This document shows, piece by piece, positions 13,310 to 63,511 of a stretch of 64,000 nt of DNA. How positions within the stretch are numbered: the stretch's first letter is position 1; every line of letters begins with the position of its first letter. This DNA comes from Geitlerinema sp. PCC 7407 (GTDB lineage Bacteria; Cyanobacteriota; Cyanobacteriia; PCC-7407): contig NC_019703.1 in the NCBI RefSeq assembly GCF_000317045.1, positions 918,501 to 982,500 of the forward strand, given 5' to 3'. Made by a program: the position numbers and the translations under genes. The notes under the pieces were generated by a model. It was not told the DNA's origin. It worked only from the letters and a program-made list of their open reading frames with translations, and did no database searches.

Positions 13310-14137
13310 ATGTCTTCTTGGAGCCAGCTCAGCGTGCTCGACGACATCGCACCCTTGGTGATGGGTGGCCTGGCCATTGGGGGGTTCCTCGCGGGGATCC
13401 TGGCCGGATTTCTCGGCATCGGCGGCGGCACGATTCTGGTGCCCCTCATGGTTACCCTGGGGTTTGCCCCCGTCCAGGCCGTCGCCACCAGCAGCCTCGC
13501 CATTTTGATCACCTCCCTCTCCGGCAGCCTCCAAAACTGGCGCATGGGCTACCTGCGTTTCCCGCAGGTTCTGGCCCTGGGCCTGCCAGCCCTGCTGACG
13601 GCGCAGATCGGAGCCTTCCTCGCCAACTACATCGCCCCCTACCTGCTTCTGCTGGCCTTCGGCCTGGTGCTCTGGCTCAATATCGCCCTGATGCAGCTAC
13701 GGCGCTCCCTGCTGGCGGCCGCTGTGCCGCCCCAGGCCCGCCTCAACCCCCGCCTCGCGCAGCTGCTCACGGGCGGTGGGGCTGGTCTGCTGGCGGGGCT
13801 GTTTGGGGTGGGGGGCGGCGTGGTGCTGGTGCCCCTGCAAATGCTGTTTTTGGGAGAAGCGATCAAAATGGCCATCCAAACCAGCTTGGCTGTGATCGTC
13901 ATGACAGCCATTTCGGCGGCTTTCGGGCATGCCTGGAATGGGCATGTTTTAGTGTGGCCTGGGCTATTGCTGGGAACCGGGGGGCTGCTGGGGGCTCAGG
14001 TGAGCACGCGCTTTTTGCCCAAGCTGCCCGACCGGGCGATCGCGATCGCCTTTTGTACCTTGCTGACCCTGCTGTCAGGCTATACCTTTTGGCAGGCGTG
14101 GCGAAGCTACCTGGCTGTCGGAGCGATCGCGCTTTAG
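13310..14137 (+). CDS. TauE/SafE-family membrane permease
   Basis: 275 residues with about eight hydrophobic helices in two similar halves. Each half carries the glycine-rich signature of the TSUP family: GFLGIGGGTILVPLMV near residue 38 and GLFGVGGGVVLVPLQM near residue 163. Family members export sulfite or organic sulfur anions, or move other small anions; the substrate cannot be read from sequence. It lies 188 bases before an ABC importer of the sulfonate/nitrate/pyrimidine type on the same strand, so a functional link is possible but unproven. Confidence 0.87.
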   Translation: MSSWSQLSVLDDIAPLVMGGLAIGGFLAGILAGFLGIGGGTILVPLMVTLGFAPVQAVATSSLAILITSLSGSLQNWRMGYLRFPQVLALGLPALLTAQIGAFLANYIAPYLLLLAFGLVLWLNIALMQLRRSLLAAAVPPQARLNPRLAQLLTGGGAGLLAGLFGVGGGVVLVPLQMLFLGEAIKMAIQTSLAVIVMTAISAAFGHAWNGHVLVWPGLLLGTGGLLGAQVSTRFLPKLPDRAIAIAFCTLLTLLSGYTFWQAWRSYLAVGAIAL

Positions 14138-14325: not shown

Positions 14326-15405
14326 ATGCATCACACATCTCGGTCTCGTCTGAGCCTGTCAAAGCTCAATCGGCGTCGGTTTTTGCAGTACAGCGGCCTG
14401 GCCCTGGGCAGCAGTCTAGCGGCGGCCTGTGCAGGGCTGCCCAGCGATCGCTCCAGCAGCCCCTCGGCCAGCGCCGACGGCCTCGAAAAGCTGGTCTTTG
14501 GTACAAACTGGGTCGCCGAAGCTGAGCATGGCGGCTTCTACCAGGCGGTGGCAACCGGGCTCTACCGCGAAGCGGGCCTGGATGTCACGATCAAAATGGG
14601 AGGGCCTCAGCTGCCCAGCGGAACCCAGCTCCTGATGGGCGGCGCAGTGGACCTGTTCATGGGCTACGGCATCGACGCCATCAAGGCCGTCGAAGAAGGC
14701 ATCCCCAAAGTGACGGTTGCGGCGATTTTCCAAAAAGATCCCCAGTGCCTGATCGCCCACCCCAACACCGGCGTCACCACCCTAGCGGACCTCAAGGGCC
14801 GCCCCATATACGTCTCGGCCTCCGCAAATGCCACCTACTGGCCGGTGCTGCGCGCCAAATACGGCTTCACCGACGACCAAAAACGCCCCTACAACTTCAA
14901 CCCGGGGCCTTTTCTGGCAGACAAGACCGTGGCCCAGCAGGGCTACGCCACCTCTGAGCCCTTTGCCATCGAGAAGCAGGGCAAATTTGAGCCCGTGGTC
15001 CTGCTGCTGACCGATAGCGGCTACACGCCTTATTCGACCACCATCGAGGCGAAGACAGAGCTGGTTGAACAAAACCCCGAGCTAGTGCAGCGCTTTGTGG
15101 ATGCGTCGATCAAGGGCTGGTACAGCTACCTGGAGAACCCAACTCCCGCTAATCAGCTCATCAAGCAGGCAAACCCCGAAATGAGCGATGAGCACTTGGC
15201 CTTTAGCCTTCAAAAAATGAAGGAATATGCCATGGTGTTGGGGCCGGACGCCCTGCGCTTGGGGATTGGGGCGATGACCGAGGAGCGCTGGAAGACGTTC
15301 TTTGACGAGATGGCGTCGGTGGGAATCTTGAAGCCAGAGACGGACTACCGCAAGGCGTACACGCTGAAGTTTGTGAATCGTGGACCGGAGTACTACAAGG
15401 CGTAG
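14326..15405 (+). CDS. ABC importer substrate-binding lipoprotein (NMT1/SsuA type, Tat signal)
   Basis: 359 residues. The N-terminus has a twin-arginine motif (NRRRFLQYSG), a hydrophobic stretch and a lipobox LAAAC, so it should be exported folded by Tat and anchored as a lipoprotein. The mature part is an NMT1/THI5-like binding domain: LVFGTNWVAEAEHGGFYQAV, then GLYREAGLDVTI and later DLKGRPIYVSASANATYW. Relatives bind sulfonates, nitrate, thiamine pyrimidine precursors or other N-heterocycles. GAGGAAG lies 8 bases before the ATG. The ATPase and permease genes follow, then an amidohydrolase and a flavin oxidase, which argue for an N-heterocycle rather than nitrate or sulfonate. Confidence 0.88.
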   Translation: MHHTSRSRLSLSKLNRRRFLQYSGLALGSSLAAACAGLPSDRSSSPSASADGLEKLVFGTNWVAEAEHGGFYQAVATGLYREAGLDVTIKMGGPQLPSGTQLLMGGAVDLFMGYGIDAIKAVEEGIPKVTVAAIFQKDPQCLIAHPNTGVTTLADLKGRPIYVSASANATYWPVLRAKYGFTDDQKRPYNFNPGPFLADKTVAQQGYATSEPFAIEKQGKFEPVVLLLTDSGYTPYSTTIEAKTELVEQNPELVQRFVDASIKGWYSYLENPTPANQLIKQANPEMSDEHLAFSLQKMKEYAMVLGPDALRLGIGAMTEERWKTFFDEMASVGILKPETDYRKAYTLKFVNRGPEYYKA

Positions 15406-15505
15406 GCCGAACGGAGAGCAAAGCGACAGTGGCGGTGCGATCGGAGGGTTTGATGCGGGAGATCGGAGGCAAGGGGATGTGGGCTCCCCCAGGGAGGAAA
15501 GGGGT

Positions 15506-16339
15506 ATGAGCGATCGCCCAGCAATTCGGCTCAGTCAGGTGACGAAGGTCTACCGCAACGGGACGGTGGCCCTCGAAAATCTGGATTTGGCGGTGCCAGA
15601 GTCTCAGTTCGTCAGCCTGGTGGGGCCGTCGGGCTGCGGCAAAAGTACGGTGCTGCAGCTGATGGCGGGTCTCGGTACCCTCACATCGGGCCAGGTGGAG
15701 TGGGCAGATCCCGGCATTGCGGCGGCGGTGCGATCGCGCAATGCCGAGGCCCAAGAGAGCCACGGCTTGGCCTTTGTGTTTCAGGAGGCGGCGCTGATGC
15801 CCTGGGCGACGGTCCTAGAGAATGTGTGTCTGCCCTTCAAGCTGGCCGGGGTGCCGCCCCGCAAGGCGGCGATCGCCGCTCGCGAGGCCCTGCACCGGGT
15901 GGGCCTGGAGGGAGCAGAGCGCTGCTATCCCCGCGAGCTATCGGGGGGCATGAAAATGCGGGTTTCGATCGCCCGAGCCCTGGTCACTCGCCCCAAGGTG
16001 CTGCTGATGGATGAGCCCTTTGGCGCTCTCGACGAGATCACCCGCAGCCGCCTCAACGAAGACTTGCTGGCCCTGTGGAGCGAAATGCGCTGGACGGTGG
16101 TTTTTGTCACCCACAACATTTATGAGGCGGTGTATCTTTCCAATCGCGTGGTGGTGATGGCGGCGCGGCCTGGCCGGGTGGTGGCGGATATCCCCATCGA
16201 AGCGCCCTATCCCCGCTCGGAGAGCTTTCGCACCTCCCCCCTGTTCAATCAGTACTGCCGCCGAGTGTCGGCGGCGTTGGCCGAGGCGATCGCCCCTTCG
16301 CCCCTGGCGGACCCCGGCGTTCTAGATTCGCCTGTTTGA
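15506..16339 (+). CDS. ABC importer ATPase (SsuB/TauB/NrtD family)
   Basis: 277 residues from the ATG at 15506, preceded by GGAGGAAAGGGG. Walker A GPSGCGKST, Q-loop FVFQEAALMPWATVLEN, signature ELSGGMKMR, Walker B VLLMDEPFGALDEITR and H-loop VVFVTHNIYEA are all intact. A small insertion with a HIP1 site (near residue 75, IAAAVRSRNAEAQ) lengthens the loop after Walker A. The gene is 100 bases after the lipoprotein gene and 18 bases before the permease, so the three form one importer operon. Confidence 0.92.
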   Translation: MSDRPAIRLSQVTKVYRNGTVALENLDLAVPESQFVSLVGPSGCGKSTVLQLMAGLGTLTSGQVEWADPGIAAAVRSRNAEAQESHGLAFVFQEAALMPWATVLENVCLPFKLAGVPPRKAAIAAREALHRVGLEGAERCYPRELSGGMKMRVSIARALVTRPKVLLMDEPFGALDEITRSRLNEDLLALWSEMRWTVVFVTHNIYEAVYLSNRVVVMAARPGRVVADIPIEAPYPRSESFRTSPLFNQYCRRVSAALAEAIAPSPLADPGVLDSPV

Positions 16340-16357
16340 CGCTCTAACGAAATTGCC

Positions 16358-17236
16358 ATGCCCCCCTCCGGTGCCCCTTTTCGTGTGCCCAAACCCAAGC
16401 CCCCGGTGCGATCGCCCCAGAGGCGTCCTAGAATCCAGCGCCTGAGGTCTCGGCTGCTCTCGGCGGATGTCCTGGCCCCGGCGGGGGTGGGCCTCGCTAG
16501 CCTGCTGCTGTGGGAGGGACTGGTTCGCTGGCTAGATGTGCCGCCCTACCTGCTCCCGGGGCCGCTGCTGGTGCTCCAGACCCTGGGGACGGAGGGGGGC
16601 GAGCTGTTTGGGTCCCTGCTGATCACCCTCCAGATCACGGTGGTGGCCTTTGGAGCGGCGGTGGTTTCGGGGCTGCTGATTGCGGTGCTGTTTGCCCAGA
16701 GCAAATGGATCGAGCGCAGTTTGTTTCCCTACGCGGTGATCCTCCAGACGACCCCCGTCGTGGCGATCGCCCCCCTGATCATCGTCTGGCTGCGCAACAA
16801 CACCTTTGCCGCTCTGGTCGTCTGCGCCTGGATTGTGGCCTTCTTCCCCATCGTCGCCAACACCACCCTCGGCCTCAACAGCGTCGACCACAACCTGCAA
16901 AACCTCTTTCGGCTCTACCGGGCCTCGCGCTGGCAAACCCTGCTGTATCTGCGCCTGCCCAGCGCTCTGCCCTACTTCCTGGCGGGGCTGCGCATCAGCG
17001 GCGGGCTGGCCCTGATCGGGGCCGTGGTGGCGGAGTTTGTGGCGGGCACCGGCGGCGTGCGATCGGGGATCGCTTACCAAATTCTGATTTCTAGCTACAA
17101 TCTCCAGATTCCGCGCATGTTCGCGGCCCTGCTGATGACCACGGGGCTGGGGGTCGTCATCTTTGTGCTGCTGACGGTGCTGTCGGACTACTGGCTGCGT
17201 CACTGGCACGAGAGCGCGGTGCGCCGCGATCGCTAG
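16358..17236 (+). CDS. ABC importer permease (SsuC/TauC/ThiX family)
   Basis: 292 residues with a basic N-terminus rich in Pro/Arg (about 1-35) and six membrane helices. The cytoplasmic EAA-like loop that contacts the ATPase is at about residues 185-215 (LFRLYRASRWQTLLYLRLPS). It forms a homodimeric channel in this family. It follows the ATPase by 18 bases and precedes the amidohydrolase by 132 bases on the same strand. Confidence 0.91.
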   Translation: MPPSGAPFRVPKPKPPVRSPQRRPRIQRLRSRLLSADVLAPAGVGLASLLLWEGLVRWLDVPPYLLPGPLLVLQTLGTEGGELFGSLLITLQITVVAFGAAVVSGLLIAVLFAQSKWIERSLFPYAVILQTTPVVAIAPLIIVWLRNNTFAALVVCAWIVAFFPIVANTTLGLNSVDHNLQNLFRLYRASRWQTLLYLRLPSALPYFLAGLRISGGLALIGAVVAEFVAGTGGVRSGIAYQILISSYNLQIPRMFAALLMTTGLGVVIFVLLTVLSDYWLRHWHESAVRRDR

Positions 17237-17368
17237 GCCCCAGATCGCGAATGGGGCCGCGGGGCCGCTGTTTTTTCGAAAAAATTGGTCAAGAATGGAA
17301 AGAGCGCGCGGGGGCGATCGCTGCCTCTAGATCGCGCTGACTTGCTGGGGCTGGGCGTTAAATTGAGC

Positions 17369-18733
17369 ATGATTCCGAAGGCGACGACATACTGGCTGTG
17401 CAATGTCCGGGTTCCGGCAGCCCTGCTGGAAGGGGTGGATCCTGGCCTCTTGGCGACCCGCGATCGCGATGATCTGGTGCGGGTGGATCTGCAAATTGAC
17501 GCCGGGGCGATCGCCCAGATCGCGGCGGCCGGAGACGGCGATCGCCCGCAGCCGGCGGTGGACTGGCGCGGCGGTCAGGTCTGGCCCTGCTTTGTCGATC
17601 TGCACACCCACCTGGACAAGGGCCACACCTGGGAGCGCACCCCCAACCCCGACGGCTCCTTTGAGTCGGCCATCACCAAAATCAAGCAGGACGCCGCCCA
17701 GCACTGGCAGTTCGAAGACCTCTACCGCCGCATGGAGTTTGGGCTGCGCTGTAGCTATGCCCACGGGACCCAGGCCCTGCGGACCCACCTCGACTGCTAC
17801 GACAATGGGCTGGCAACAACGAACTTGGCGGTGTTTCGGGCGCTCAAGGACGCCTGGGCCGGTCGCCTGGAGCTCCAGGCGGTCACCCTGACCTCGATTG
17901 ATACCTTTTTGACGCCTTTGGGCGATCGCCTCGCCGACCAGATCGCGGAGGTTGGGGGCGTGCTAGGGGGCTTGGTCTTGATGCACCCGGAGCTGCCCCA
18001 GCAGCTCGATCGCGTGTTTCAGCTGGCTCAGGAGCGGGGTCTGCCCCTGGATTTCCACACGGACGAGACCGGCGACCCCAGCAGCATTACCCTGCGCTAC
18101 ATCGCTGAGGCGGCCCTCCGCAATGGCTTTGAGCAGCAGATTGTCTGTGGGCACTGCTGTAGCCTGGCGGTCCAGCAGCCCGAGGCGGTGATGGCGACGA
18201 TCCGGGCGCTCCAGCAGGTGCGGGCCGGGGTGGTGAGCCTGCCGATGTGCAATCTCTATCTGCAAGATCGCGCCCAAAGTGCGTCTCAGCGCTGGGTGAA
18301 TCTGTCAGAAAGCTTGCCAGGGGCGATCGCCACGACCCCCCGCTGGCGAGGCGTGACCCTGATCCACGAGCTCAAGCACCAGGGAATTCCGGTGGCGCTG
18401 GCTAGCGACAATTGCCGGGATGTCTTCCACAGCTTCGGCGATCACGACGTCCTCGAAGTGTTTAGCCAGTCGGTGAAAATCGCCCATCTCGATCGCCCCT
18501 ACGGCGACTGGCCCCAGGCCGTCACCAAAACCGCTGCGGACCTGATGGGGCTGCCTCAGGTGGGCCGCATTGCGCCCGGGCTGCCAGCCAACTTGGTGCT
18601 GTTCCGGGGGCGCAGCTACAGCGAGCTGCTGTCGCGTCCCCAGGGCGATCGCGTGGTGCTGCGCCAGGGCCAGCCCATCGACACCACCCTGCCCGACTAC
18701 GCCGAGCTGGACGATCTGGTCGGCGGGTCCTAG
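17369..18733 (+). CDS. Cytosine-deaminase-like amidohydrolase
   Basis: 454 residues from the ATG at 17369; a TTG at 17285 would add 28 unlikely residues. Metal-ligand motifs of the CodA/AtzC branch of the amidohydrolase superfamily are visible: FVDLHTHLDKGHTW (HxH), PLDFHTDETGDPSS (the catalytic HxDE step), IVCGHCCSLA (His) and VALASDNCRDVFHSFGDHDV (Asp). Relatives deaminate or hydrolyse ring C-N bonds in cytosine, isocytosine, creatinine, pterins or triazines, so the exact substrate is open. It follows the importer genes and precedes a flavin oxidase. The gene contains several HIP1 sites in loops (GDRP and similar peptides). Confidence 0.83.
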   Translation: MIPKATTYWLCNVRVPAALLEGVDPGLLATRDRDDLVRVDLQIDAGAIAQIAAAGDGDRPQPAVDWRGGQVWPCFVDLHTHLDKGHTWERTPNPDGSFESAITKIKQDAAQHWQFEDLYRRMEFGLRCSYAHGTQALRTHLDCYDNGLATTNLAVFRALKDAWAGRLELQAVTLTSIDTFLTPLGDRLADQIAEVGGVLGGLVLMHPELPQQLDRVFQLAQERGLPLDFHTDETGDPSSITLRYIAEAALRNGFEQQIVCGHCCSLAVQQPEAVMATIRALQQVRAGVVSLPMCNLYLQDRAQSASQRWVNLSESLPGAIATTPRWRGVTLIHELKHQGIPVALASDNCRDVFHSFGDHDVLEVFSQSVKIAHLDRPYGDWPQAVTKTAADLMGLPQVGRIAPGLPANLVLFRGRSYSELLSRPQGDRVVLRQGQPIDTTLPDYAELDDLVGGS

Positions 18734-18839
18734 ACCCCCGGGCTTGAACCCCTGGTGGATTGCTTGGACCTCGCTTGAGCCTTGCTGGAGCCTCGGCTAA
18801 ACCCCCTTTAAATTCCTTGCCTACTTTTCTAGAGCTGTC

Positions 18840-20195
18840 ATGACCGCAACGCCTTCGCCTGTTATCAACTGGGACGCTGTCCAGCGCGACTTGGTCAATC
18901 TGGAGCTGATCGCAGACCCGGCCCAGATCACCAAGCTTTCCCAGGATTACTACACCTTTAGCCCGGTGCTGGTGCCCCTCTTGAGCGATAAGCGGGGCGA
19001 CCTGGTGGTGCGTCCGGCCAACGTTGACGAGATTCTCCAGGTGGCTCGGGTCTGCGTCCAGCATCGGGTGCCCCTGACCGTGCGCGGGGCGGGCACCGGC
19101 AACTACGGCCAGTGTGTGCCCTTGCAGGGCGGCATCATCCTGGACGTGAGCCGTCTCAACCAGATTCACTGGATCCGGCCCGGGCTGGCCTGCGTGGAGC
19201 CCGGCGTGAAAATGGCGGCCTTTGACAAAGAAGCGCGCCCCCAGGGCTGGGAGCTGCGCATGGTGCCCTCGACCTACCGCACGGCGACGATCGGGGGCTT
19301 CATTGCAGGGGGCAGTGGCGGCATTGGCTCGATTACCTACGGCCAGCTGCGCGATCGCGGCAATCTCCAGGCCCTCAAGGTCGTCACCATGGAGGACGAG
19401 CCCCGCATCATCGAGCTGCGGGGAGACGACGTCCAGAAGGTCAACCACGCCTACGGCGTCAACGGCATCATTGTGGAACTGGAGATGCCCCTGGCCCCGG
19501 CCTACCCCTGGACCGAGCTGATCGTCGCCTTCGAAGATTTTCTGGCGGCGGCCCGCTTTGGTCAGGCCCTCGGAGAGTCGGACGGCATTATCAAAAAGCT
19601 GATCAGCATTCACGCTTGGCCGATTCCTAGCTACTTTGTGCCGTTTCGCGATCGCATTCCGGAAGGGCAGCACTGCGCCCTGCTGATGGTGGCTGAGCCC
19701 TCCCTAGAGCCGCTCCAGGACCTCGTGCGGGAGTACGGCGGCACGATCTGCTACGACAAGCCGGCCCAGGATACCCACCGGGGCACGGCGATCGGCGAAT
19801 TTACCTGGAATCACACCACGCTCCATGCCCGCAGCGTCGATCCAGACTTTACCTATCTCCAGACTCTGCTGCCTCCGGATCCAGAGTTTGCGTTCCTAGA
19901 TCATCTCTACCACCACTTCGGGGATGAGGTGCTTCTGCACCTGGAGTTTCTGCGATTCCACGGCAAGGTGCGGCCTGCGGCCCTACAGCTGGTGCGCTAC
20001 ACCACCGAAGAGCGCCTCAATGAGATCATTCGCTACCACGAGGAGCGGGGAGCGTTCATTTTCAATCCCCACACGTACATCCTCGAAGACGGCGGCATGA
20101 AAACCATTAACCGCGAGCAGCTCCAGTTCAAGGAGCAAGTAGATCCCTACGGCCTGCTCAATCCGGGCAAAATGCGCGCCTGGCTTGAGCGTTGA
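18840..20195 (+). CDS. FAD-binding oxidase/dehydrogenase (GlcD-like, VAO/PCMH fold)
   Basis: 451 residues. The FAD-binding PCMH fold spans about residues 50-225: LVVRPANVDEILQVAR, the pyrophosphate loop VRGAGTGNYGQCV, then VEPGVKMAAFDKEA and TATIGGFIAGGSGGIGSITY. The C-terminal half is a substrate/cap domain ending DPYGLLNPGKMRAWLE, as in glycolate oxidase GlcD and related flavin enzymes. The His or Cys usually used for covalent FAD attachment is not evident. It is 106 bases after the amidohydrolase, on the same strand. Its likely job is oxidising the imported compound or its hydrolysis product, which is inference. The stop is 10 bases from the convergent nrtS stop. Confidence 0.82.
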   Translation: MTATPSPVINWDAVQRDLVNLELIADPAQITKLSQDYYTFSPVLVPLLSDKRGDLVVRPANVDEILQVARVCVQHRVPLTVRGAGTGNYGQCVPLQGGIILDVSRLNQIHWIRPGLACVEPGVKMAAFDKEARPQGWELRMVPSTYRTATIGGFIAGGSGGIGSITYGQLRDRGNLQALKVVTMEDEPRIIELRGDDVQKVNHAYGVNGIIVELEMPLAPAYPWTELIVAFEDFLAAARFGQALGESDGIIKKLISIHAWPIPSYFVPFRDRIPEGQHCALLMVAEPSLEPLQDLVREYGGTICYDKPAQDTHRGTAIGEFTWNHTTLHARSVDPDFTYLQTLLPPDPEFAFLDHLYHHFGDEVLLHLEFLRFHGKVRPAALQLVRYTTEERLNEIIRYHEERGAFIFNPHTYILEDGGMKTINREQLQFKEQVDPYGLLNPGKMRAWLER

Positions 20196-61556: not shown

Positions 61557-62378
61557 TTACGACGCTTCGACGCGAGCGTAGAAGAGGCCGCGGATTTTGA
61601 CATCGACAGGATCTTTTGCTTCCATGTCGGTATCAGAGGGCTGAATGCTCACGAAAGTACCCGCAACTTCGCCGGTGACCGGATCGACCTTGGCAACTTG
61701 CAGTGAGATGTTGCCTTCGCGCACGCGGAAGTTCTTGGTGTTCTCGCGGCTCAGTTCGCCACTGTCAGCTTGAGCGGGCAGGGCGACTGCGTTGTCGTAG
61801 CCGCTAGCAAGGCCCCGGCCTTTGGGATCGAGGAAGTTGGCGGTGCGGTAGCCAGGCACTTTGAAGCTGCCTTCAAAGTCGGTGGAGGTGTTGATGCTGT
61901 CGATACCCGGCTGGGTCTGAGCAACAAGACCTTTGATGGTGAATAGGAAAGGTACTTGCTCGCCACCGGGCAGCAGAACGGTGGTGGGCTGGAAGTCTAG
62001 GCCGTCTTCTTCATTGAAGGTGAGGCTACCATCGCTACCGATGCTGAGGCTGCCTTCCACCTGGTCAATGGTCGTCGTGTAGCGAGTCAGGGGTTTGCCA
62101 GGGACAAACGCAGACTCGCGCCGCTTGCTGCTCTCTTCCTTGACCAGATATTCGGTGGGCTGGAGGCAAAGGTCTCTCAGCCGATAGGACTTGCTGGAGT
62201 CGATGGAAATAGCGCCCCGGCTGGTTTCTTGGAGCTGAGGACAGTTGTTTGCTAGGCCAGTTCCGACGATCTGGTCGTAGGTCAGCAGATCGCTGCCAGC
62301 GGATGGTCCTTCGCTACAAGCGGTTAGAACGCTGAGGCATACAGCCACAAGCGCGGTGATCAGAGCACGGTATCTCAT
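61557..62378 (-). CDS. psbO: Photosystem II manganese-stabilising protein PsbO
   Basis: 273 residues from the ATG at 62378 (MRYRALITALVAVCL), with GAGG 6 bases upstream. Exported to the thylakoid lumen: the hydrophobic signal ends VLTACSEG, a lipobox-like sequence. Mature features: LTYDQIVGTGLANNCPQLQE, RDLCLQPTEYLVKEESSKRR (the two Cys of the conserved disulfide), DGLDFQPTTVLLPGGEQVPF and ASGYDNAVALPA. Stabilises the oxygen-evolving cluster. Transcribed alone, with its own terminator and an HLR1 element 122 bases upstream. Confidence 0.97.
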   Translation of the reverse strand: MRYRALITALVAVCLSVLTACSEGPSAGSDLLTYDQIVGTGLANNCPQLQETSRGAISIDSSKSYRLRDLCLQPTEYLVKEESSKRRESAFVPGKPLTRYTTTIDQVEGSLSIGSDGSLTFNEEDGLDFQPTTVLLPGGEQVPFLFTIKGLVAQTQPGIDSINTSTDFEGSFKVPGYRTANFLDPKGRGLASGYDNAVALPAQADSGELSRENTKNFRVREGNISLQVAKVDPVTGEVAGTFVSIQPSDTDMEAKDPVDVKIRGLFYARVEAS

Positions 62379-63115
62379 AGTTAACCTCAATACCAAATAT
62401 CAAAGTCCCTGCCAGTGCAAGTAAAGGGGTGCTTCTTCAAAGCTGATCCAAGCGGGTAAGTAATGAGTTCTAAACCAAATTAGGAAAAGATGAACACATT
62501 ACGTAACAATTTGTAATGTGTTTTTTCAAGACATTACCGATCGCTGGGGAGACGTTTTTGAGTTGATGCCAATTTTTAAAAAATGCCTCTATGATGCCGA
62601 AATGGTTCAACCCAAGTCCCACCAAAGCATTGTACACGGTCTTGTAACCTTTCGAGGTGCCGTTAAATTGCTAGAGGTTTTTTAAAAGAATTAATTTCTG
62701 GCTGCTGCTTTTCCCTCGTTAGATTAACGATTGATACATTTTGAAACACCTGAGTCTTGTAGATTGAGTTGACTTGGCTAGTAGCCCCGGCCCTGCTGCA
62801 AGGGTACGGAGGGGCAAGCTGCGGTTGACTGGGGCTCAAATCACGGGCGGGGGTTAGCGACGAATTGCCAAGGGTGCAAAAATTAGCTTGGTAATGTCCA
62901 TCGGCACCCCAGGTTTTTGGGAGCGTGAATCTGGTATGCGGAGCCTTGCGATAGGCGCTGAAGCGTATCTTCTGATGTGAAGCTCAAAGAACGAGGCTCC
63001 CGCAAAAACGAGTTTCTTTTGAGAAGCCTGGGCTGCGATCTTGGATTGAGTGTCGGAAGGTTTTCAGCCTAGGGCAGGTGTTGAGGGCTTAATCCTGAAG
63101 GACCAAAGGGGCGAT
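62379..63115. other. Intergenic region upstream of psbO
   Basis: 737 bases between psbO (minus) and the next plus-strand gene. It holds the psbO promoter with the HLR1/inverted-repeat element, A/T-rich sequence at 62560-62720, a 27-codon plus-strand frame (ATG 62602 to TAA near 62685) of uncertain value, and a GC-rich hairpin-prone part near 62760-62830. I see no known RNA or larger protein. Confidence 0.55.
62493..62522. promoter_or_regulatory. HLR1-like (RpaB) site inside an inverted repeat, psbO promoter
   Basis: Read on the minus strand (psbO direction), bases 62517 to 62500 are ATTACAAATTGTTACGTA: two TTAC-type half sites 10 bases apart, close to the HLR1 consensus (G/T)TTACAWWNN(G/T)TTACAWW bound by RpaB, with mismatches at the first base and at one A of the second half. 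It lies in a perfect 10-base inverted repeat, AACACATTAC (62493-62502) / GTAATGTGTT (62513-62522). It is about 122 bases from the psbO ATG. Confidence 0.6.
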
Positions 63116-63511
63116 ATGGAGGATCATCGATTGGAGCAGGTTCGGTGGCAGGAAACTTTGCAGGCGGAGTTGGAAGAAGTGCGGGCGATCGCCCATCAGC
63201 AGGAGGGGGATAGCCTCAATCTGCTGTTTGTGCTTCGGGAGCTGGAGCGTCTCCACAAGGAGATCTGTGATACGTGGTTTCAGGACTCGCTGCCCCAAAA
63301 CCGCCAGGCGCTCTATGCGCTGCTGCGAGATATTGAGGCGGAGGGCGGTTGGCCTTATATTCACCGGATGCGGCTGCGATCGCTGCTGGTGCGGATGGCG
63401 CCGGAAGACCTAGAGGCTCTGCACATCCAGTTTGGGGAACAGGCCGACCTGCAAAACGGGACGCGGCGATCGCCCTCGAGGCTATCCGCGCCTGAGGAAG
63501 ACCGGTCCTAG
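63116..63511 (+). CDS. Small cyanobacterial protein of unknown function
   Basis: 131 residues from the ATG at 63116 (MEDHRLEQVRWQETLQAELE), with AAAGGGG upstream; the frame from 63050 is longer but less likely. It is mainly helical and acidic: LLFVLRELERLHKEICDTWF, LPQNRQALYALLRDIEAEGG and RMRLRSLLVRMAPEDLEALH. No transmembrane helix, no motif I recognise. The last 25 residues are a variable tail with HIP1-encoded residues. Confidence 0.65.
   Translation: MEDHRLEQVRWQETLQAELEEVRAIAHQQEGDSLNLLFVLRELERLHKEICDTWFQDSLPQNRQALYALLRDIEAEGGWPYIHRMRLRSLLVRMAPEDLEALHIQFGEQADLQNGTRRSPSRLSAPEEDRS

Follow-up and report, generated by a model that had tools for sequence, protein, structure and literature searches.

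The Five-Gene Row in the Window

Does a row of five genes in Geitlerinema sp. PCC 7407, encoding a substrate-binding lipoprotein, an ATPase, a permease, an amidohydrolase, and an FAD-linked oxidase, constitute a single system, and if so, on what kind of compound might it act? The initial annotation, made from the sequence alone, had proposed that the genes provide import, ring hydrolysis or deamination, and oxidation as a route to nitrogen from an external ring compound. I will refer to the 64,000-nucleotide stretch of NC_019703.1 that was analyzed (positions 918,501 to 982,500) as the window, and give positions within it unless otherwise noted. The host genome consists of one contig of 4,681,111 bases.

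The row lies at 14326–20195 on the plus strand, as claimed, and a check of open reading frames and profiles found all five genes intact, each with a Pfam domain that exceeds its cut-off. It begins with a substrate-binding lipoprotein of the NMT1/THI5-like family (14326..15405; PF09084, 1.2e-28, 100.9 bits against a cut-off of 20.5), followed by the ABC transporter ATPase (15506..16339; ABC_tran, PF00005, 6.5e-31, 108.2 bits), whose gene adjoins that of the permease in relatives as well, and the permease itself (16358..17236; BPD_transp_1, PF00528, 1.5e-26, 93.7 bits), which is 70–79% identical to its cyanobacterial relatives. The amidohydrolase, called AMH below (17369..18733, plus strand; Amidohydro_3, 99.5 bits), and an FAD-linked oxidase/dehydrogenase (18840..20195; FAD_binding_4, PF01565, 1e-30, 106.7 bits) complete the row. 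Since the gaps from the binding-protein gene to the FAD gene are only 100, 18, 132, and 106 bp, co-transcription is possible. The ATG at 17369 is probably the start of AMH, because the start of one relative, of similar sequence, coincides with it.

A gene for a TauE/SafE family membrane protein (13310..14137, plus strand; PF01925, 2.8e-47) lies immediately 5' of the row, a placement repeated at loci L037 and L038; at L073 the gene is about 4 kb away. It is a possible sixth member, of uncertain membership. Farther along the window, between 28000 and 54000, the GC content drops from about 0.62 to 0.52–0.56; this region, with secY (39667) inside it, resembles ordinary housekeeping genes, not an island.

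The N-terminus of the binding protein, MHHTSRSRLSLSKLNRRRFLQYSGLALGSSLAAAC, contains a twin-arginine motif and a lipobox cysteine, judged by eye, in accord with its earlier description as a Tat-exported lipoprotein. The closest solved structures are 4nmy, ThiY (3ix1), and THI5, and the protein falls short of the SsuA-type aliphatic sulfonate binding proteins (TIGR01728; 33.7 bits, cut-off 163.5). The FAD enzyme scores similarly far below glycolate oxidase GlcD (TIGR00387; 89.9 bits, cut-off 567.9). Its match to an FAD/FMN-containing dehydrogenase (PDB 6v42/6v43) spans nearly the whole protein (residues 12–448 with 6v42; E 1.3e-128, 433 bits). No papers citing 6v42/6v43 were found.

The Active Site of the Amidohydrolase

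AMH scores 631 bits against NCBIfam PRK07583, a model named cytosine deaminase, above the curated cut-off of 403 (the relatives from Klebsiella and Pantoea, at 230 and 221 bits, lie under it). The best structural matches to its predicted AlphaFold model, one of moderate quality (pLDDT 67), are E. coli CodA (1k6w; Z 26.6) and AtzC, N-isopropylammelide isopropylaminohydrolase (Z 25.7). The enzyme had been called CodA-like with complete metal motifs, and so far as fold and metal site are concerned, this holds. HxH, H231, E234, H263, and D348 of the cytosine deaminase group are all present, and the equivalents of the CodA metal ligands His61, His63, His214, and Asp313 and of the catalytic residues Glu217 and His246 are kept in 57 of the 57 relatives aligned.

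The likeness to CodA does not extend to the residues of substrate recognition. CodA Gln156, Phe154, Asp314, and Trp319 are all replaced in the alignment of 57 relatives (Gln156 by Ser, Thr, Pro, and others, Asp314 by Asn, and Trp319 by Phe), and AMH Lys85, Asn349, and Phe354 are invariant throughout it. Lys85 and Asn349, both extra with respect to CodA (where the equivalents are Thr66 and Asp314), correspond to Lys65 and Asn304 of AtzC; the roles of these two residues and of His219 in AtzC are taken from PMC4577212. AMH differs from AtzC in turn, with Glu in place of His219 (as in CodA), mostly Ser, Thr, or Pro in place of Gln160, and Phe in place of Trp309, the last two positions being equivalent to CodA Gln156 and Trp319. 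The predicted pocket is a mosaic of CodA and AtzC, distinct from each. With the cytosine-recognition residues of CodA lost and an AtzC-like Lys and Asn in all 57 relatives, the name cytosine deaminase appears doubtful, and the substrate is likely to be something other than cytosine. The host genome encodes a second amidohydrolase (G000:C1:2569258-2570430, at L006) that is 28% identical to AMH.

Gene Order in Other Genomes

The surroundings of AMH were read in 44 cyanobacterial loci picked blind to their neighbors. Two of these seem to be one contig, leaving 43 distinct loci, about 17 of which have ABC transporter genes directly 5' of AMH. The full five-gene row is found in L037, L038, and L073; a later, targeted sample added L098. 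All four are from other cyanobacterial families. Where a lineage has no AMH, the genes may run binding protein-ATPase-permease-FAD (L084 and L085) or may start with the ATPase (ATPase-permease-FAD; L086 and L087), in which case the binding-protein gene lies at another place on the contig.

The initial annotation considered the system as a cyanobacterial one, a scope that proved too narrow, since the row occurs also in Proteobacteria, including roseobacter plasmids. The exact order is found on plasmids of Rhizobium, Agrobacterium, Paroceanicella, Pseudooceanicola, Palleronia, and Sulfitobacter, and a rearranged order in Haematobacter, Mameliella, Alloyangia, Pseudosulfitobacter, Klebsiella, and Pantoea. 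The cassette on pRL12 of Rhizobium johnstonii 3841 (RL_RS34440–RL_RS34480) has the identical five genes in identical order, differing in that genes for a creatininase, a LysR protein, an NAD(P)H oxidoreductase, and RidA are adjacent too. Because the order recurs both in other cyanobacterial families and in Alphaproteobacteria, the arrangement is, on this comparison of genomes, a cross-phylum cassette and not the product of chance.

Recent transfer into the host genome is unsupported: in four gene trees, the sequences from cyanobacteria group apart from those of Proteobacteria, although support is weak. No relatives of the FAD enzyme were found in viral contigs. At five loci (L003, L004, L043, L056, and L057), AMH sits within an otherwise conserved gene block, and the importer is absent.

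Co-Occurrence of the Genes

Scattering of the genes in relatives had been named as an outcome that would speak against a common function. The FAD gene is indeed unlinked to AMH in most cyanobacteria, yet the two continue to occur together, and the full order recurs. Among 291 cyanobacterial genomes, AMH is found in 174 and a strong match to the FAD enzyme in 176, weak matches (E from about 1e-90 to 1e-117), most of them from the small-genome family f2, having been excluded by hand from the strong set. Both genes are present in 165 genomes (that is, in 165 of the 174 with AMH), AMH alone in 9, the FAD gene alone in 11, and neither in 106. A tally by family, made by hand, gives 21 with both, 1 with AMH alone, 3 with FAD alone, and at least 11 with neither (p 6e-6, a value that, like any p-value here, overstates independence, the genomes counted being kin). 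In genome G170, which represents the AMH-only family, two short fragments of the FAD enzyme lie near the intact AMH (L045:7278-7752), apparently a relic gene.

The binding protein is rarer than either enzyme, found in 86 of the 291 genomes, and in 96 genomes AMH and the FAD enzyme are both present without it. The substrate therefore need not be external, and one made internally is plausible. Two lineages without AMH encode a small TPR protein just 5' of the binding protein (L084:10480-10950 and L085:6200-6667), and another has such a gene just 5' of the FAD gene (L091:6397-6864).

The idea that the five genes form one functional module is borne out by the order of genes across phyla, the co-occurrence of AMH and the FAD enzyme, and the rows of importer and FAD genes where AMH is absent. 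The membership as first described was nonetheless incomplete, for it missed a creatininase-family enzyme, encoded in the host genome outside the window (G000:C1:805727-806530). A creatininase is found in 170 of the 174 cyanobacterial genomes with AMH and in 174 of the 176 with the FAD enzyme; its gene is near the importer-FAD row of L084 and, where the annotation of a proteobacterial locus is readable, is nearly always in or next to the cassette. By its distribution and position, this hydrolase belongs to the gene set. RidA and a flavodoxin-like NAD(P)H oxidoreductase are present as well in most of the proteobacterial loci read, and a 2OG-Fe dioxygenase in some. The host genome has two RidA-family genes elsewhere, an ordinary situation.

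Nitrogen Control

NtcA is the nitrogen regulator of cyanobacteria. Of 61 cyanobacterial regions upstream of the binding-protein gene, 22 contain a canonical NtcA promoter (GTAN8TAC-N20..25-TAN3T); shuffled sequence would give 0.4, and the opposite strand has 1. The mean identity of the sequence around the sites is only 41%, so the motif does not merely reflect shared ancestry, even if the genomes are not independent. Given what NtcA regulates, the importer is probably under nitrogen control in the strains that have such a promoter. No excess of NtcA sites was found upstream of AMH or of the FAD gene in relatives, and the window has no NtcA site. The proposed role in nitrogen acquisition fits the promoters of relatives.

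Clues to the Substrate

Two neighborhoods bear on the substrate. In some cyanobacteria, genes of URC uracil catabolism, for DUF1688 (URC4) and a GTP cyclohydrolase II homolog (URC1), adjoin AMH (L001 and L040) or the FAD gene (L085 and L091), with a gene for uracil phosphoribosyltransferase (UPRT) alongside in three of these four loci. URC1 is present in 112 of the 185 cyanobacterial genomes with AMH or the FAD enzyme and in 2 of the 106 without; put the other way, 112 of the 114 genomes with URC1 have AMH or the FAD enzyme. The URC enzymes differ from those of the cassette, and URC1 is absent from the host genome, where a GTP cyclohydrolase II-like region gives a partial match of 31% and nothing more. 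In one genome, a URC1 relic with six in-frame stops (G122:C165:61025-61828) shares a contig with AMH (62080-63393), about 250 bp away.

Directly beside the cassette in Klebsiella is an operon that encodes, behind a xanthine/uric acid riboswitch (63 bits, cut-off 36), a 43% identical binding protein together with an amidohydrolase (PRK12393) and a 2OG-Fe oxygenase. This operon matches the gene set published for the NMT1-motif (xanthine/uric acid) riboswitch class (PMC7373994), which features NMT1 binding proteins, amidohydrolases, and 2OG-Fe oxygenases. It is the only instance of the riboswitch in the 14 proteobacterial loci scanned, and there it belongs to the neighboring operon. None was found in cyanobacteria, a weak absence, as control genomes gave no match either. 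At the window locus, no riboswitch was found, neither TPP nor any other.

The two neighborhoods, uracil-catabolism genes in cyanobacteria and a xanthine riboswitch operon in Klebsiella, are independent, and both point to nucleobases. As both clues are missing from the host genome, a nucleobase-like substrate is a reasoned guess.

What the Gene Set May Do

The explanation I favor, with modest confidence, is that the genes constitute a conserved cassette for the import and degradation of a small amino-substituted N-heterocycle used as a source of nitrogen, the likeliest being a nucleobase or an oxidized, nucleobase-like ring. It is built on things observed directly: the gene content, order, and co-occurrence, the catalytic residues, and the NtcA promoters of relatives. 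The lipoprotein, ATPase, and permease would take up the ring compound. AMH, at a mononuclear metal site, would remove an exocyclic amine or hydrolyze the ring, the FAD enzyme would oxidize the ring or a side chain, and the creatininase-family hydrolase encoded elsewhere in the host genome would open a cyclic amide, with ammonium released. The class of substrate, the order of these reactions, and their products are conjectural, and the copy in the window would be presumed to act like the others. As to the proposal that prompted the study, the module and its nitrogen role are supported, and an external substrate is not required, considering the 96 genomes that have both enzymes and lack this binding protein.

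Those same genomes are what one would expect if AMH, the FAD enzyme, and the creatininase were mainly housekeeping enzymes that recycle or detoxify a ring made in the cell (for example, an oxidized base or a fragment of flavin, pterin, or thiamine), with the importer an add-on in some lineages. The retention together of FAD and AMH genes that are mostly unlinked points the same way. I consider this account unlikely, given the importer genes directly 5' of AMH in about 17 of 43 distinct loci and the single operon-like row of the entire set in Proteobacteria; moreover, unrelated transporters may stand in for the importer. Plain uptake of cytosine (or 5-methylcytosine) and its deamination to uracil would account for the PRK07583 equivalog score, for CodA as top structural match, and for the uracil-degradation genes in some relatives. 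It is improbable in view of the replaced CodA residues and the three invariant ones, and it leaves the FAD enzyme and the creatininase unexplained.

The binding protein's closest solved structures suggest instead the salvage or breakdown of the pyrimidine of thiamine (HMP or formylaminopyrimidine). The NMT1 family is broad, however, and scans of 8 cyanobacterial loci, 14 proteobacterial loci, and the window locus found no TPP riboswitch, making this reading quite improbable. That the FAD gene is an unrelated neighbor, with only importer and AMH belonging together, is suggested by its separation from AMH in most cyanobacterial loci. Already disfavored, it is rendered very improbable by the tight co-occurrence with AMH, the direct linkage across phyla, and the importer-FAD rows without AMH.

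A limited literature search, with subscription papers mostly outside its scope, found no published description of the cassette, which is apparently both widely conserved and uncharacterized. Taking the import-and-degradation reading further, I would propose, tentatively and at somewhat less than even confidence, a new pathway of nitrogen acquisition, present in Proteobacteria and in about 60% of the sampled cyanobacteria, that imports an oxidized or amino-substituted nucleobase-like ring and dismantles it with AMH, the FAD oxidase, and the creatininase-like hydrolase, by chemistry unlike the Rut, URC, and allantoin routes. If this is true, the annotation on many cyanobacterial genomes would need correcting, and the three enzyme families that currently bear the names cytosine deaminase, FAD oxidase, and creatininase would acquire one joint, testable function. 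Many cyanobacteria and plant-associated bacteria would then share an unrecognized supply of nitrogen from dissolved ring compounds, or else the recycling of a common ring metabolite.
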